NCBI GenBank assembly: GCA_016188625.1
Contig: JACPHL010000068.1
Coordinates: 1 to 5,560 of the forward strand
Origin: Candidatus Rokuibacteriota bacterium
Lineage (GTDB): Bacteria; Methylomirabilota; Methylomirabilia; Rokubacteriales; JACPHL01
DNA: 5,560 bases
Direction: 5' to 3'
Below are positions 29 through 5,560 of the stretch, piece after piece. The position numbers and the translations under genes are program-made. Every line of letters begins with the position of its first letter. The first letter of the stretch is position 1. Below the pieces are notes generated by a model that made no database searches, was not told the origin of the DNA, and saw nothing but the letters and a program-made list of their open reading frames with translations.

Positions 29-862
29 GTGATCGACGAGGCCCTCGAGCGCTTCGGGGAGCTGGTCCGGCGTCACGCGGAAGACCTCGACCTCGCCGAG
101 GGGGCGCTCCTGATCGCCCAAACCGAGTACTCGGACCTCGAGGTCGAGCGCTATCTCGGTCGCCTCGACCGGATGGCCGAGGAGGCCCGAGCCGGCCTCC
201 GGGGCGGCCAGGAGCCCGCGGCAGCGCTCCGGCGGCTCCACGTCTACCTCTTCGAGGAGCAGGGGTTCCGCGGGAACAGCGAGGAGTACTACGATCCCAG
301 GAACAGCTTCCTCAACGACGTCCTCGATCGAAAGACCGGCATCCCCATCACCCTGTCGGTGGTCTACATGGAGCTGGGCCGTCGCCTCGGGCTCACGATT
401 CGAGGGATCGGACTCCCAGGTCATTTTATGGTTGAATGGCAAGGAGATACTGAACGGCTTCTCATCGATCCCTTTAACCGAGGCGCGATCCTGGACGCCC
501 AGGAGTGCCAGGCCCTGGTCGCTCGCGTCATGGACCGACCGATCGAGCTCGGGCCCGAGCACTTCCGGTCGGTCGGCAAGCGGCAGATCCTGGCCCGGAT
601 GCTCCTCAACCTGAAGGGGATCTGGTTCAGCCGGCAGGAGTGGGGGAAGGCCCTCGCAATCGTGGAGCGGCTGCTCCTCCTCGCCCCGGCGGCCCTCGGC
701 GAGGTGCGGGACCGGGGGATCATCCACGCCCGGCTCGGAACATGGGTCGCGGCCGTCCGCGACCTCGAGGCGTACCTCCGGGCCCGGCCGGAGGCCCCCG
801 ACGCCGAGACCGTCCGCCACCACCTGCGGACTGTCCGTCAAGCCCTGGCCTCCCGGAACTGA
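29..862 (+). CDS. SirB1-family protein: transglutaminase-like domain with C-terminal TPR-like helices
   Basis: The 277-aa product has the signature of the SirB1 (E. coli YchA) family. Residues 1-75 are helical. The block at 80-99 contains RGN, YYDPRNS and FLNDVL; GIPITLS is at 104-110; GIGLPGHFMV is at 126-135; LLIDPFN is at 144-150. The last ~90 residues (LLNLKGIW at 192-199, then amphipathic helices) look like tetratricopeptide repeats. The fold is that of the transglutaminase core: His132 and Asp147 fit two catalytic positions, but the expected nucleophilic Cys appears to be Ser110, so peptidase or transglutaminase activity is doubtful. There is no signal peptide or membrane segment, so it is probably cytosolic. 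The molecular role of the family is poorly defined. The start is a GTG preceded by a purine-rich Shine-Dalgarno at 15-27. The next gene begins 10 bases after the stop, which suggests an operon. Family assignment is firm; function is not. Confidence 0.9.
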   Translation: MIDEALERFGELVRRHAEDLDLAEGALLIAQTEYSDLEVERYLGRLDRMAEEARAGLRGGQEPAAALRRLHVYLFEEQGFRGNSEEYYDPRNSFLNDVLDRKTGIPITLSVVYMELGRRLGLTIRGIGLPGHFMVEWQGDTERLLIDPFNRGAILDAQECQALVARVMDRPIELGPEHFRSVGKRQILARMLLNLKGIWFSRQEWGKALAIVERLLLLAPAALGEVRDRGIIHARLGTWVAAVRDLEAYLRARPEAPDAETVRHHLRTVRQALASRN

Positions 863-872
863 GGGCGCGCCG

Positions 873-2027
873 GTGCGGACGGCGGACGTCGTCGTCATCG
901 GCGGCGGGATCATCGGCTGCTCCATCGCCTACCACCTCCTCGCCCGGGCCGGGCGCCTCCGGGTCGTCCTCCTCGAGCGCGAGGCCGAGCTGGGGACCGG
1001 CGCCACCGCCCGGGCCACCGGCGGGATCCGCCACCAGTTCTCGAGCGCGACCCTGATCCGCCTCACCCGGCTCTCGCTCCCCGCCTTCCTCCGCTTCGAG
1101 GAGGAGTTCGGCCGCTCCGCGGACTTCGTCCCCCACGGCTATCTCTTCGTCACCGCCGAGCCCGACCGGCTCGAGGGGTACCGTCGGGCGGTCGCCCTCC
1201 AGCAGTCGCTCGGCGTGCGGAGCCGGATCCTCGCTCCGGAGGAGCTGCGCGACCTCCTCCCCCAGCTCGCCACCGCCGACCTCCTCGGCGGGAGCTTCTG
1301 CCCCGACGACGGCTCGGCCGACCCCCACGGCGCGCTCCAGGGATTCGTCACCCGGGCCCGGGCGCTCGGGCTCGAGGTCCTCACCCGCGCCGAGGTGGTC
1401 GCGATCGATCGCGAGGGGGAGCGTGTGGCAGGAGTGAGAACCGCGACCGAGCGCTACGCCGCTCCGGTCGTGATCAACGCGGCCGGCCCGTTCGCCGACC
1501 GGGTCGCCCACCTGGCCGGGGTGGAGATCCCCTCGAGGCCCTACCGCCGCCAGGTCCTGGTGGTCGAGCCGCCGCCCGAGCTGCCGGAGGTCTTCCCCCT
1601 GATCGTGGACGGGGACAGCGGCTTCTACGTCCACCGCCAGGGGAGGAGCGCCCTCGTCATGGGCGGGACCGACAAGGACAGTCGCCCCGGGACCGAGATC
1701 GCCGTGGACTGGGAGGCCTTCGAGCCGGTCCTGTCCGCCGCGGCCCGGCGGGTCCCGCCCCTGGCCGAGGCGAAGGTGATGCGCGCCTACGCCGGACTCC
1801 GCGACCTCACCCCCGACTACCACGGGATCTTGGGTCAGATCCCGGAGGTCTCCGGCTTCTACGTCGCCTGCGGCTTCTCGGGGCACGGCTTCATGCACGC
1901 CCCCGCGATCGGGCGGCTCATGGCCGAGCTGATCGTGGACGGCCGGGCCCGGAGCCTCGACCTCGCCCCGCTCTCGCCCAAGCGGTTCCGGGCCGGCCGA
2001 TCAGAGACAGAAGTCCAGATCTTCTGA
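873..2027 (+). CDS. FAD-dependent oxidoreductase, DAO family (sarcosine/glycine oxidase-like)
   Basis: The 384-aa product matches the D-amino-acid oxidase/sarcosine oxidase beta-like family in length and layout. The N-terminal Rossmann motif (VVVIGGGIIG, residues 6-15) and Glu35 at the end of strand 2 bind the ADP part of FAD. The conserved stretch GTGATARATGGIRHQF is at 41-56. INAAGPFADRVAHLAG (201-216) is the second FAD-contact region of the family. The C-terminal signature is YAGLRDLTPD (306-315) followed by CGFSGHGFMHAPAIG (333-347). Such enzymes oxidise amines or amino acids such as sarcosine, glycine or proline, passing electrons to O2 or a partner; the substrate cannot be read here. 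There is no signal peptide or membrane helix. The GTG start has GAGGG at 861-865, which overlaps the upstream TGA stop, so translation is probably coupled to the SirB1-like gene. No second (alpha, gamma or delta) subunit gene is visible. Confidence 0.9.
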   Translation: MRTADVVVIGGGIIGCSIAYHLLARAGRLRVVLLEREAELGTGATARATGGIRHQFSSATLIRLTRLSLPAFLRFEEEFGRSADFVPHGYLFVTAEPDRLEGYRRAVALQQSLGVRSRILAPEELRDLLPQLATADLLGGSFCPDDGSADPHGALQGFVTRARALGLEVLTRAEVVAIDREGERVAGVRTATERYAAPVVINAAGPFADRVAHLAGVEIPSRPYRRQVLVVEPPPELPEVFPLIVDGDSGFYVHRQGRSALVMGGTDKDSRPGTEIAVDWEAFEPVLSAAARRVPPLAEAKVMRAYAGLRDLTPDYHGILGQIPEVSGFYVACGFSGHGFMHAPAIGRLMAELIVDGRARSLDLAPLSPKRFRAGRSETEVQIF

Positions 2028-2036: not shown

Positions 2037-3110
2037 TCAGCCGGAGGCGGCGAGGGCCCGGATGAGGGTGGCGTCGGCGGGCGGGAAGGGGAGGGTCGCG
2101 AGCTCCCCGGGCCGGACCCAGCGGTAGCGCTGCCCCTCCTGGGGGCGGACCCGGCTCGAGGCGAGCCGGCAGCGGAAGAAGTGGAGGCGCACCCGTCGCT
2201 CGGGGTAGGGGTGGGCGACCGCCAGCACCTCCTCCCCCACCTCGACCTCGATGGCCAGCTCCTCGCGGAGCTCCCGGCGCAGGCACGCCTCGAGCGACTC
2301 TCCGGGCCGCCGCTTCCCCCCCGGGAACTCCCAGTACCCAGGAAGGTGCTGTCCGCCCCGCCGCCGGGTGATCAGGTAGCGCCCGTTTCTGGCGATGAGG
2401 GCGGCCGCCACCTCCACCTCCGGGAGCGGCGCCGGCCGGTGGCGCGCCAGGCGCCGGAAGATCCGGAGGAGCGAGGCGCGGTAGGCGGCCCACCCCATGA
2501 AGCGGTTGGCGTTGGAAGGGTGGAGGAGGACGATCACCGTCCGGCCGCCCTGCCGGAAGCTCCGGGCGTGGTCGCGGGGAAAGCTGACTTGGCGGCCGAG
2601 GACCGCCCGCGCCGCGACCGCGCCCACGGCGACGACGATCTTCGGGTCGAGGAGCCGGAGCTCCGTCTCGAGGAAGCGGGCGCAGTTGGCGATCTCCGAG
2701 GCCCTCGGCGCGCGGTTCGCCTCCCGAGCTCCCGGCGCCTCGGGCCAGCACTTCACCGCGTTGGTGAGGAAGAAGAGATCCTCGAGGTCGAGGCCGAGCC
2801 GCCGGATCTCCCCGCGGAGGACCATCCCGGCCCGGCCGGTCCAGTGGCGGGCGTTCCGGATGCTGGCGATCCCCGGCGCCTCCCCGACGAGGACGAGCCC
2901 GGTGTCCGGGCGCCCCACGGCCTCCCAGGGGAACTTCCGGTAGCCGCAGATCGTGGGGCAGCGCGTGCAGGCCGCCACCTCCCGGTAGAGGGCTTTGATC
3001 GCGGTGGCAGCCCCGTGGGGAGGCGCCGACCCCTCGCTCCGCACGCTGCGCGGCGCACCCGCCAGTGGCTCGCCGGGCGGGGCCCCTCCTCTTTTGTCCT
3101 CCGCTCGCAT
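2037..3110 (-). CDS. Fusion protein: Fe-S uracil-DNA glycosylase domain plus MutT-like Nudix hydrolase domain
   Basis: Numbered from the ATG at 3110 the protein has 357 aa. Domain 1 (~38-220) is a family 4-like uracil-DNA glycosylase. Cys48, Cys51, Cys121 and Cys143 fit the four 4Fe-4S ligands. The uracil-pocket motif GEAPG is at 76-80, followed by HWTGRAG (89-95), NAVKCWP (117-123) and the second active-site motif HPSNANR (197-203). A few residues are inserted between the third and fourth ligands compared with typical members. A short linker leads to domain 2 (~233-357), a Nudix domain whose box runs 265-287 (G-x5-E-x7-REL-x-EE-x-A-I). Only the last Gly of the consensus is changed, to Ala, so hydrolysis of an oxidised or deaminated (d)NTP is likely. 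The frame is continuous through both domains. It lies directly downstream of mutY. The start is uncertain: a GTG at 3242 with GGAG six bases upstream would add 44 low-complexity residues and overlap mutY by 82 bases; a GTG at 3044 is also possible. Confidence 0.88.
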   Translation of the reverse strand: MRAEDKRGGAPPGEPLAGAPRSVRSEGSAPPHGAATAIKALYREVAACTRCPTICGYRKFPWEAVGRPDTGLVLVGEAPGIASIRNARHWTGRAGMVLRGEIRRLGLDLEDLFFLTNAVKCWPEAPGAREANRAPRASEIANCARFLETELRLLDPKIVVAVGAVAARAVLGRQVSFPRDHARSFRQGGRTVIVLLHPSNANRFMGWAAYRASLLRIFRRLARHRPAPLPEVEVAAALIARNGRYLITRRRGGQHLPGYWEFPGGKRRPGESLEACLRRELREELAIEVEVGEEVLAVAHPYPERRVRLHFFRCRLASSRVRPQEGQRYRWVRPGELATLPFPPADATLIRALAASG

Positions 3111-3152
3111 TCCGGCTTCCCCACCCGGCTCGCTCACGGCGGGGACCCGCGC

Positions 3153-3173
3153 CGCTCCGCTTAACGCTCCGCT
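3153..3173. repeat. Tandem pair of CGCTCCGCT at the mutY stop codon
   Basis: The nine-base unit CGCTCCGCT occurs at 3153-3161 and 3165-3173, twelve bases apart, flanking the mutY TAA stop (3163-3161 on the minus strand). A related CGCTCCGC recurs at 3035-3042 in the N-terminal coding part of the next gene. This supports the view that the junction is a repeat-rich spacer rather than conserved coding sequence. Confidence 0.4.
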
Positions 3174-3898
3174 CGGGGCCGCCGCCTCCCCACTGGGGGG
3201 GGCGTCGGAAGGGGGGCGGAGCCCCCCTCCGAGGAATCCCACGGGTAGCTCCGGCAGAAGCGGCGCATCGGACAGTCGGGGCAGCGCGGCCGCCTCGCCG
3301 TGCAGACTAGCGCCCCGAAGTCCATCAGCGCCTGGTTGAAGTCGTAGGCGCCGCCCCGCGGGATCAGGGCGGCCACCAGCTCCCAGAGGCGCTTCTGCCC
3401 TTTGAGGCGGCGCAGGCCCACCCGCCCGAGGAAGACCCGCCCGACGAGGCGCCGGACATTGGTGTCGAGGATCGGGGCGTCCCTGGCGTAGGCGAAGGCC
3501 AGGACCGCCCCCGCGGTGTAGCGGCCGATCCCCTTGAAGGCCAGGAGGGCTGCTGGGTCATCCGGGAGCTTCCCTCCGTAGCGGGCCACGGCCTCGCGCG
3601 CGATGGCGTGGAGGCGGACCGGACGGATGTTGTAGCCGAGCGGGTACCAGGTCCTCCGCACCTCCTCCACCGGGGCGCGGGCCAGCTCCTCGAGCGTCGG
3701 GTACCTGACGAGGAACTCGTGGTACTTGGGAAGGACGCGCTCGACCTGGGTCTGCTGGAGCATGATCTCCGAGACGAGGACCCGGTAGGGATCGCGGGTC
3801 TCGCGCCAGGGGAGCCTCCGCCCGTGGCGGCGGTACCAGGCGAGCAGGCGGCGCTGGAAGCGGCGGCGGCGGGCGGGATCGACGGACGGGCGGCTCAC
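3161..3898 (-). CDS. mutY: A/G-specific adenine DNA glycosylase, short form without C-terminal 8-oxoG-recognition domain
   Basis: The 245-aa product is the catalytic half of MutY, which removes adenine mispaired with 8-oxoguanine or guanine. SEIMLQQTQV (43-52) carries catalytic Glu44 and the Gln wedge. LGYN (87-90) supplies the Tyr that intercalates opposite 8-oxoG. The helix-hairpin-helix FKGIGRYTAGAV spans 121-132. ILDTNVRR (143-150) supplies catalytic Asp145. Cys199, Cys206, Cys209 and Cys215 form the exact CX6CX2CX5C 4Fe-4S loop. Full-length MutY proteins are about 350 aa; here only ~25 residues rich in Pro, Gly and Arg follow the cluster, so the Nudix-like C-terminal domain is absent. 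The GTG start at 3898 lies just before recognisable homology and has no Shine-Dalgarno, but a TATAAT box sits seven bases upstream. A TTG at 4012 would add 38 residues without family resemblance. A related thymine-mismatch glycosylase is a less likely reading. Confidence 0.93.
   Translation of the reverse strand: MSRPSVDPARRRRFQRRLLAWYRRHGRRLPWRETRDPYRVLVSEIMLQQTQVERVLPKYHEFLVRYPTLEELARAPVEEVRRTWYPLGYNIRPVRLHAIAREAVARYGGKLPDDPAALLAFKGIGRYTAGAVLAFAYARDAPILDTNVRRLVGRVFLGRVGLRRLKGQKRLWELVAALIPRGGAYDFNQALMDFGALVCTARRPRCPDCPMRRFCRSYPWDSSEGGSAPLPTPPPVGRRRPRAER
3210..3228. repeat. GC palindrome at the mutY/uracil-glycosylase junction
   Basis: Bases 3210-3217 and 3221-3228 are perfectly complementary (8-bp stem, seven pairs G-C) around a three-base loop. 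A second, smaller C4/G4 stem lies at 3188-3198. On the minus-strand transcript the stem sits inside the last codons of mutY and has no U-run after it, so it is not a classic intrinsic terminator. It may instead be a REP-like dispersed palindrome, an attenuator, or an mRNA-stabilising stem between the two repair genes. The sequence encodes the low-complexity MutY tail (around residues 223-228). Confidence 0.5.
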
Positions 3899-3996: not shown

Positions 3997-4152
3997 TGTA
4001 TGTCCAACGCAAGCAGTGGTCCTCGGGGGTTCCGACTGGCGGGATAAAGGTTCAAGCAAGATAACAAGAGGTCAGACGCAAACAAAAGGATTGGCGAAGT
4101 AAAAACCACAGGGTCTGTCAGCGTCTCGCGCGCTTTTGAGGGGTCTACCGGC

Positions 4153-4157
4153 GGAGG
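4153..4157 (+). promoter_or_regulatory. Shine-Dalgarno GGAGG fixing the kinase start
   Basis: GGAGG lies eight bases before the GTG at 4166 and decides this start over the in-frame TTG at 4136, which has no ribosome-binding site. The frame is closed by a TAA at 4100-4102. Confidence 0.7.
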
Positions 4158-4165
4158 CGGAAATC

Positions 4166-5560
4166 GTGGAAGCGGACAGGCGGGTCCTGGTGGTCGATGA
4201 CGAGCCGGAGATCCTCGCCCTGTTGGCCGAGTTTCTTTCGACGCTCGGCTGCAAGGTGCTGCTGGCGGGGAACGGGGCCGAGGCCCTCCAGCTCTTCGCC
4301 GCGTGGCGGCCCGCCCTCGTCATCACCGACCTCGTGATGCCCGAGGTTGATGGCTTGACGCTGATGCGGGCCGTCAAGGAGGCGAGCCCGCGGACCGAGG
4401 TCCTGGTCATCACCGGCCACGCCGATCTCGACTCCGCCGTCCAGGCGCTCCGGCAGGGCGCCTTCGAGTACCTCACCAAGCCCCTCGACCTCGAGGCCCT
4501 GGGCCGCCGGGTGGAGCAGGCCCTGGAGCGCCGCCGGCTGATCCTCGAGAAGGAGGCTCTCCTCGAGGAGCTGGAGGAGCGGGTCCAGGCCAGGACCGCG
4601 GCCCTGGCGGAGAGCCGGCGACGCCTTGGCGCGCTGTTCGACGGGATCACCGATCCCCTCCTCATCGTCGATCGGGCACTCACGATCCTGGTCGCCAATC
4701 TGGGGGCCGCCAGGTTCTCGGGCACCCCGGTGGAAGACCTCATCGGCCGGAAATGCCACAGGGCGCTGTTCGGGCGGGAGGAGCCCTGCGAGGGGTGCCC
4801 GGTCCGGGAGACCTTCGCCAGCGGCCGGCCCGCCTCCAGCTCCCTGTCGCAGCAGGAGCCGGGCGGGAGCGCCCGCTATCTGGAGATCTCCAGCTATCCC
4901 CTGACCGGCGAGGGGGAGCGGCCGGCGGAGGCCGTCGAGCACATCCGCGACGTCACGGAGAAGGTCCGCCAGGCGCGCTACCTCCACAACGCCGAGAAGC
5001 TCGCCGCCGTCGGGCAGTTCGCCGCCGGGATGGTGCACGAGCTGGGCAACGCCCTGGCCATCGTCACCGCCTCCGCGCAGTTCCTCCTCGGGTACCCCAA
5101 CGACCGCCGGCAGATGGGCCGTCCGTATCTGGAAGCGATACGCCGGAGCGTGACGGCGGCCGAGCGGACGATCCGTGAGCTCCTGGCCTTCGCCCGGCCG
5201 CGGGAGCCCTCCATGGAGGTCTTGAACGTGGCGGAGGTGCTGGATCGCGTCTGCCTCCTCCTTAAGGGGGAGTTGGCGAAGCATGGGGTGGAGGTCGTGC
5301 GTCAGGTGGCCGCCGACCTCCCCGCGATCCGGGGGGATCCGGAGCAGCTCCAGCAGGTCTTCCTCAACCTCCTCCTCAACGCCGTCCAGGCGATGGAGGG
5401 GGGCGGGCCGGTCACGATCAGGGCGGTCTTCGATCCGCCGCAGTGGGCGCGGGTGGAGGTGGTCGACACCGGCCGGGGCATCCCCGCGGAGCACCTCGAC
5501 CGCATCTTCGACCCCTTCTTCACCACCCGGGAGGGGGGCACGGGCTTGGGCCTCTCCATC
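4166..5560 (+). CDS. Hybrid sensor histidine kinase REC-PAS-HisKA-HATPase, cut by window end
   Basis: 465 codons are present and the frame is still open at the edge, probably only a few dozen residues short of the end. Order: receiver domain (1-120) with Asp11/Asp12, phospho-acceptor Asp55 in VITDLVMP, Thr83 and Lys105; a charged, probably coiled-coil linker (~120-150); PAS domain (~151-265); HisKA with phospho-acceptor His291 in MVHELGNAL; HATPase_c with the N box ending NLLLNAVQAM (Asn405), G1 DTGRGIP (434-440), F box FDPFFTT (448-454) and G2 GGTGLGLSI at the edge. There is no membrane segment, so it is a cytosolic sensor. The N-terminal receiver suggests it takes phosphate or a signal from another kinase as well as signalling onward. 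The PAS domain carries Cys197, Cys208 and Cys211, which could bind metal or sense redox state. Ala296 replaces the usual Pro of the H box (HExxNP). Its output partner is not in the window. Confidence 0.92.
   Translation, partial: MEADRRVLVVDDEPEILALLAEFLSTLGCKVLLAGNGAEALQLFAAWRPALVITDLVMPEVDGLTLMRAVKEASPRTEVLVITGHADLDSAVQALRQGAFEYLTKPLDLEALGRRVEQALERRRLILEKEALLEELEERVQARTAALAESRRRLGALFDGITDPLLIVDRALTILVANLGAARFSGTPVEDLIGRKCHRALFGREEPCEGCPVRETFASGRPASSSLSQQEPGGSARYLEISSYPLTGEGERPAEAVEHIRDVTEKVRQARYLHNAEKLAAVGQFAAGMVHELGNALAIVTASAQFLLGYPNDRRQMGRPYLEAIRRSVTAAERTIRELLAFARPREPSMEVLNVAEVLDRVCLLLKGELAKHGVEVVRQVAADLPAIRGDPEQLQQVFLNLLLNAVQAMEGGGPVTIRAVFDPPQWARVEVVDTGRGIPAEHLDRIFDPFFTTREGGTGLGLSI

Follow-up and report, generated by a model that had tools for sequence, protein, structure and literature searches.

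What does a gene do that joins an Fe–S uracil-DNA glycosylase (UDG) to a MutT-like Nudix domain, next to a short mutY? This question is raised by the window analysed here, a stretch of 5,560 nucleotides forming contig C163 of a draft genome (2.6 Mb, 344 contigs, 84% complete), the features of which are collected in table 1. The initial annotation had described one continuous frame comprising both domains and, indeed, Pfam places them in a single unbroken frame (PF03167 UDG with the E-value given in the table, NUDIX_4 at 1.6e-24 and NUDIX at 2.4e-20). On the minus strand, this frame stays open upstream of 3110, as far as 3242, and the conserved part of the protein starts near 2984. Nothing ties the three plus-strand genes of the window to the fusion.

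Table 1. Position of the features identified in the window, with the basis of each assignment or a remark.
Feature	Position	Strand	Basis or remark
SirB1-like transglutaminase/TPR protein	29-862	+	
FAD-dependent DAO-type oxidoreductase	873-2027	+	
UDG–Nudix fusion ORF	2037..3110	-	357 aa counted from ATG at 3110
Alternative in-frame start of the fusion ORF	GTG 2978-2976	-	
MutT-like Nudix domain	2040..2426	-	Pfam, tree, AlphaFold
Nudix box GKRRPGESLEACLRRELREELAI	2250..2318	-	complete save Gly to Ala near its end
Fe–S UDG-superfamily domain, unnamed subfamily	2442..2984	-	PF03167 1.8e-26; clade 100/98; fold match
UDG motif 2 HPSNANR, catalytic His (H155 equivalent)	2502..2522	-	
Motif 3 TNAVKC: uracil-specificity Asn (N80 equivalent) and third Fe–S Cys	2748..2765	-	
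Trp at family-4 F54 position	2841-2843	-	numbering from PMC5387724
Ser at family-4 E47 position	2862-2864	-	numbering from PMC5387724
UDG motif 1 GEAPG	2871..2885	-	alignment to Tth UDGa and A4
MITE-like dispersed repeat, 173 bp	3018..3190	.	between mutY and fusion
Short mutY, catalytic and Fe–S domains only	3161..3898	-	probable GTG start at 3898
Response regulator–PAS–histidine kinase hybrid	4136-5560	+	

The fusion is not confined to one assembly. Among the 59 genomes of the order that were searched, the same architecture was retrieved from a second one, belonging to another family (G003), and the two proteins are 59–60% identical across both domains, a recurrence that goes far beyond chance. 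The G003 protein keeps the equivalents of E41, N80, N89 and H155 (family-4 numbering), the four cysteines and the Nudix box. In G003, the TGA stop of mutY sits in a GTGA whose GTG opens the fusion frame (4 bp overlap); in both genomes, the fusion travels with a short mutY. The fused genes found are these two only, from two families of one order. No such fusion was found in 395 Nitrospirota genomes, a search in which scoring was limited to the top candidates of each genome, and no description of a UDG–Nudix fusion or of a UDG–mutM pair was found in the literature searched, the coverage of which was partial. The fusion is real and predates the window genome. The domain combination is new, and the UDG subfamily on which it is built is unnamed; the families and the chemistry are of known kinds.

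Judged by its sequence, the glycosylase half is a distinct, unnamed Fe–S subfamily of the UDG superfamily. Three genes of this superfamily occur in the window genome, namely a family-4 gene (C42), a family-5 gene (C270) and the fusion, and the fused UDG scores below the cut-offs of both TIGR00758 (family 4; 81.8 versus 125.3 bits) and TIGR03914 (UdgX; 94.4 versus 189.95 bits). With family-4 UDGa (Tth 1ui0, Tma 1l9g), it shares the fold, the four Fe–S cysteines (CTRC, VKC and ANC; C13, C16, C86 and C108 in the fused proteins), a motif 1 of the type GE-A-PG and the equivalents of N80, N89 and H155 (N82, N97 and H162 in the window protein); an ANR motif is also present. However, identity in structural alignment is 26–30%, E47 is replaced by Ser and F54 by Trp, a Nudix domain is carried at the C-terminus and the protein lies outside the family-4/UdgX clade. 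Core identity with UdgX reaches 41%, but the fused UDG has neither the KRRIH loop (with the cross-linking His109) nor the QPG motif, and belongs to a separate clade; from family-5 UDGb it differs in having GEAPG in place of the GLAP motif 1. The AlphaFold fold of residues 1–190 matches family-4 structures, including 1ui0, with Z 17; confidence in this part of the model is moderate, its pLDDT being about 46–77 along most of the chain and the UDG rows of its input being viral family-4-like proteins, which may bias the model. Affiliation of the fused UDG to plain family 4, family 5 or UdgX was ruled out by clade and motifs. Elsewhere in the order, an odd UDG-superfamily protein (L186 1896-2690, G002:C378) with motifs AEAPGRYGADRSRVPLHGD and HPSQRVMNTRR fits none of the compared families.

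The first stand-alone relative of the fused UDG, found by a profile search in Nitrospirota, adjoins fpg (mutM) in genome G673. With a three-row profile (A3), 12 members were detected at 193–308 bits in 269 genomes of one Nitrospirota class, and together with the two fused proteins they make up one clade of 14 (support 100/98), distinct from families 4, 5 and UdgX. A 14-row profile (A4) gives the fused members 238–249 bits and the next proteins, of family-4/UdgX type, at most 95; applied to further genomes of the phylum and to other phyla, it yielded no more members. Close relatives of the fused UDG were not found in 396 Acidobacteriota genomes or in the viral contigs and plasmids searched, and none emerged from phages queried with a Nitrospirota member.

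All 12 Nitrospirota genes lie immediately upstream of fpg and are co-directional with it, the spacing being an 8-bp overlap in six cases, a 3-bp gap in two and 32–247 bp in four. The identity of Fpg was confirmed for one locus (TIGR00577, above cut-off), and at L330 fpg runs off the contig. As a control, 40 family-4/UdgX loci (mean 2.4 kb) were drawn from related and other genomes, and not one of them had fpg, mutY or mutT close by. These links to the GO (oxidised-guanine/oxidative damage) repair system are not fully independent events, as there are two fused genes only and the 12 relatives come from one class; they suggest that the subfamily may be a fourth enzyme tied to this system.

Which base such an enzyme would remove depends on its pocket, formed in Tth UDGa by E41, G42, E47, F54, N80 and H155, with N89 placing the water (PMC5387724). 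There, H155 is critical, replacement E47A lowers uracil excision about 100-fold, and E47 and N80 are compared with Tyr66 and Asn123 of Escherichia coli UNG (PMC5387724). Changes Y147A and N204D make human UNG1 excise T and C (PMC11162499). Across the 14 subfamily members, the equivalents of H155, N89 and E41 are invariant, and the E47 position is occupied by Ser in 13 and by Gly in L336. The fused pair has Trp at the F54 position and Asn at the N80 position; the Nitrospirota members have Phe at the former and, in 12 of 12, Asp at the latter. The E47 and N80 changes coincide with positions whose engineered changes in human UNG admit T and C, Y147 and N204 of human UNG1 being the counterparts of Tyr66 and Asn123. 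We infer that the pocket of the subfamily may be opened to 5-substituted pyrimidines, and that of the Nitrospirota members is probably turned to a cytosine-type face. Given this altered pocket and the GO neighbours, oxidised pyrimidines would be natural candidate substrates and, in view of the cost of E47A in Tth UDGa, uracil excision by the fused UDG may be weak.

The glycosylase half could instead be a third, diverged uracil-DNA glycosylase, joined to MutT by chance and with no functional coupling. The retention of N80, N89, H155 and E41 equivalents in the fused proteins is consistent with ordinary uracil excision, and operon-internal gene fusions are common. Yet the window genome already possesses family-4 and family-5 UDGs, GO genes accompany the subfamily in two phyla, and the unusual S47 and W54 are common to both fused members, which makes this reading unlikely, albeit worth keeping in mind.

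The second half of the question concerns mutY, which was initially said to have lost its Nudix-like domain. The neighbouring MutY does end after its Fe–S cluster: its match to solved MutYs stops just past the Fe–S cysteines, its tail amounts to 24 residues, partly repeat-derived, and its score against TIGR01084 (234 bits) is below the cut-off of 286.5. It shares with MutY/MUTYH the catalytic HhH domain and the Fe–S cluster, the equivalents of E37 and D138 and the four cysteines being kept in alignment with E. coli MutY, but has no C-terminal 8-oxoG-recognition domain; what adjoins it instead is a MutT-type gene or the fusion. The word ‘lost’, on the other hand, has to be given up, since, throughout the order, mutY is generally short and the MutT-like gene separate. 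Of 28 loci in relatives, one starts at a contig end; in every assessable relative (27 of 27), a stand-alone MutT-like Nudix gene comes after the short mutY. The two genes abut or nearly so in 24, and in three (L188, L189 and L190) a single SDR-type dehydrogenase gene intervenes. In a third family of the order (G002), a contig ends shortly after mutY, and a MutT fragment begins another contig.

The pair of short mutY and MutT-like gene also exists elsewhere in the class (f10), in Nitrospira relatives, in some Acidobacteriota and in one Omnitrophota genome, and in the Nitrospirota genome G673 a short mutY adjoins a MutT-like gene as well; full-length MutY is found in most examined genomes of other phyla. 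As for the window genome (84% complete), no second MutY was seen, the other HhH hits read being EndoIII-like, and the Nudix proteins read included no further MutT-type member. In one further genome, a separate 151-aa open frame (G527:C25:3389-3829) matches E. coli MutY residues 202–345 only, alongside a full-length MutY.

The stand-alone Nudix proteins of the relatives are 55–63% identical to the fused Nudix domain. In a tree of 142 Nudix domains, which has few columns and many weak forks and of which the broad groupings alone were used, both fused domains cluster with the genes that adjoin mutY in this order (support 90); a branch with support 96 separates the MutT/NudG side, where they fall, from nearly all MutY C-terminal domains. 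The fused Nudix is the ortholog of the mutY-adjacent MutT-like gene and not a displaced MutY domain, an origin ruled out by tree and motif; the novelty of the locus is the UDG joined to the 5′ end of the MutT gene.

Is this Nudix domain an enzyme? It follows the consensus GX5EX7REUXEEXGU apart from the last Gly (Ala), and of the 112 MutT-like domains compared, 111 have an intact strict box GX5EX7REXXEE. The same strict box occurs in one MutY C-terminal domain only, that of L207. This full-length MutY of a Myxococcales-type genome (G526) has a C-terminal Nudix with an intact catalytic box GGKVEAGETPAEALQREMCEETG and a YSHF motif; the MutT domain of this MutY may be active. The AlphaFold model of residues 194–322 (pLDDT mostly 88–98) reaches Z 20 to MutT with 8-oxo-dGMP, the nearest folds being MutT, MutT2 and CTP pyrophosphohydrolase. 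The fused domain has the fold, the Nudix box and the EFPGGK of MutT and of the NudG/MutT2-type pyrimidine-dNTP pyrophosphatases; it differs from MutT in carrying a glycosylase and in having PPAD at the site of E. coli MutT PPAN119, as in NudG, and scores below the cut-off of TIGR00586 (87.5 versus 97.9 bits). With PPAD as in NudG, both 8-oxo-dGTP and oxidised pyrimidine dNTPs are candidate substrates.

Two roles had been envisaged for this domain, dNTP pyrophosphatase or recognition of 8-oxoG in trans for MutY. The intact box, the grouping with MutT/NudG-type enzymes, the nearest folds and the absence of FSH favour the former, the Nudix half being most likely a working dNTP pyrophosphatase. 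The motif by which MutY reads 8-oxoG is FSH (PMC11078426), and this motif (H-x-FSH) is absent from the fused Nudix domain. The latter role draws on the short MutY having this Nudix gene, or the fusion, as its neighbour in every relative that could be assessed, and on the proposal that the 8-oxoG-reading C-terminal domain of MutY derives from MutT (Noll 1999, as cited in PMC11078426); set against the missing motif, a catalytic box intact throughout nearly all MutT-like domains and a place off the MutY-C-terminal side of the tree, recognition in trans seems improbable.

Nor is the UDG half likely to be a non-catalytic platform that binds damage or DNA and brings the MutT enzyme to it. Loss of E47 and replacement of F54 by Trp, both at uracil-pocket positions, would fit such a role, which nevertheless becomes hard to credit when the equivalent of H155, the strongest catalytic residue, and N89 are invariant in 14 of 14 members.

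The repeat between mutY and the fusion calls for a separate comment. At least 40 copies of it, 85–93% identical, occur in the 2.6-Mb genome; its boundaries are sharp across 26 aligned copies, its ends carry imperfect terminal inverted repeats of approximately 16 bp (GGGAGGCGTCGGCCCC / GGGGCCGACGCCTCCC), and no match was found in Rfam (RNA families). It contains both the mutY stop and the ATG at 3110, and the first approximately 30 residues from this ATG and the last approximately 10 residues of MutY, being repeat-encoded, are unlikely to be conserved protein. Such a repeat in a fragmented assembly might hint at a chimera or an accident of frame, an explanation virtually ruled out by the independent fused copy in another family, the repeat lying moreover upstream of both domains and away from the UDG/Nudix junction.

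We return to a coupled pair of enzymes. Sequence and gene order are best read as those of a glycosylase that is linked to GO, perhaps acts on oxidised pyrimidines and is fused to the MutT of the operon. That an active glycosylase and an active MutT-type Nudix work in a GO-linked unit has, in our estimation, a probability of about 60%, the exact lesion being much less sure. The fusion gene would encode a two-enzyme protein of a GO repair operon: the Nudix half would hydrolyse damaged dNTPs, either 8-oxo-dGTP or those of oxidised pyrimidines, ahead of their incorporation, the glycosylase half would remove a damaged pyrimidine from DNA, and MutY, although it lacks the usual C-terminal reader, would remove the A paired with 8-oxoG. 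The pyrimidine could be uracil or a 5-substituted or oxidised one, e.g. 5-hydroxyuracil; the altered pocket and the gene neighbours of the glycosylase are more in keeping with the latter. Fusion would fix the co-expression and the stoichiometry of pool cleaning and excision.

A more specific proposal can be put forward only tentatively, as the odds lean against it: the subfamily would be a dedicated fourth GO component, an oxidised-pyrimidine glycosylase carrying in natural form the switches engineered in UNG, with S for E47 to admit 5-substituted pyrimidines and, in Nitrospirota, D for N80 to present a cytosine-type face. One phylum would have this enzyme next to mutM, and another would have it joined covalently to MutT, near a reader-less MutY.

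For the specialist, what is novel here is the GO linkage and the pocket changes of the UDG subfamily. The arrangement in which MutY lacks its reader and a neighbouring, separate MutT-type enzyme keeps its catalytic box intact resembles an unfused counterpart of MutY's own C-terminal domain, and it bears on the long-standing proposal of a MutT origin of the 8-oxoG reader (Noll 1999). If our reading is true, the 8-oxoG repair system has a partner undescribed in the literature searched and detectable by genome neighbourhood, the changed active site predicts a changed substrate, and one polypeptide would guard both the nucleotide pool and the DNA.
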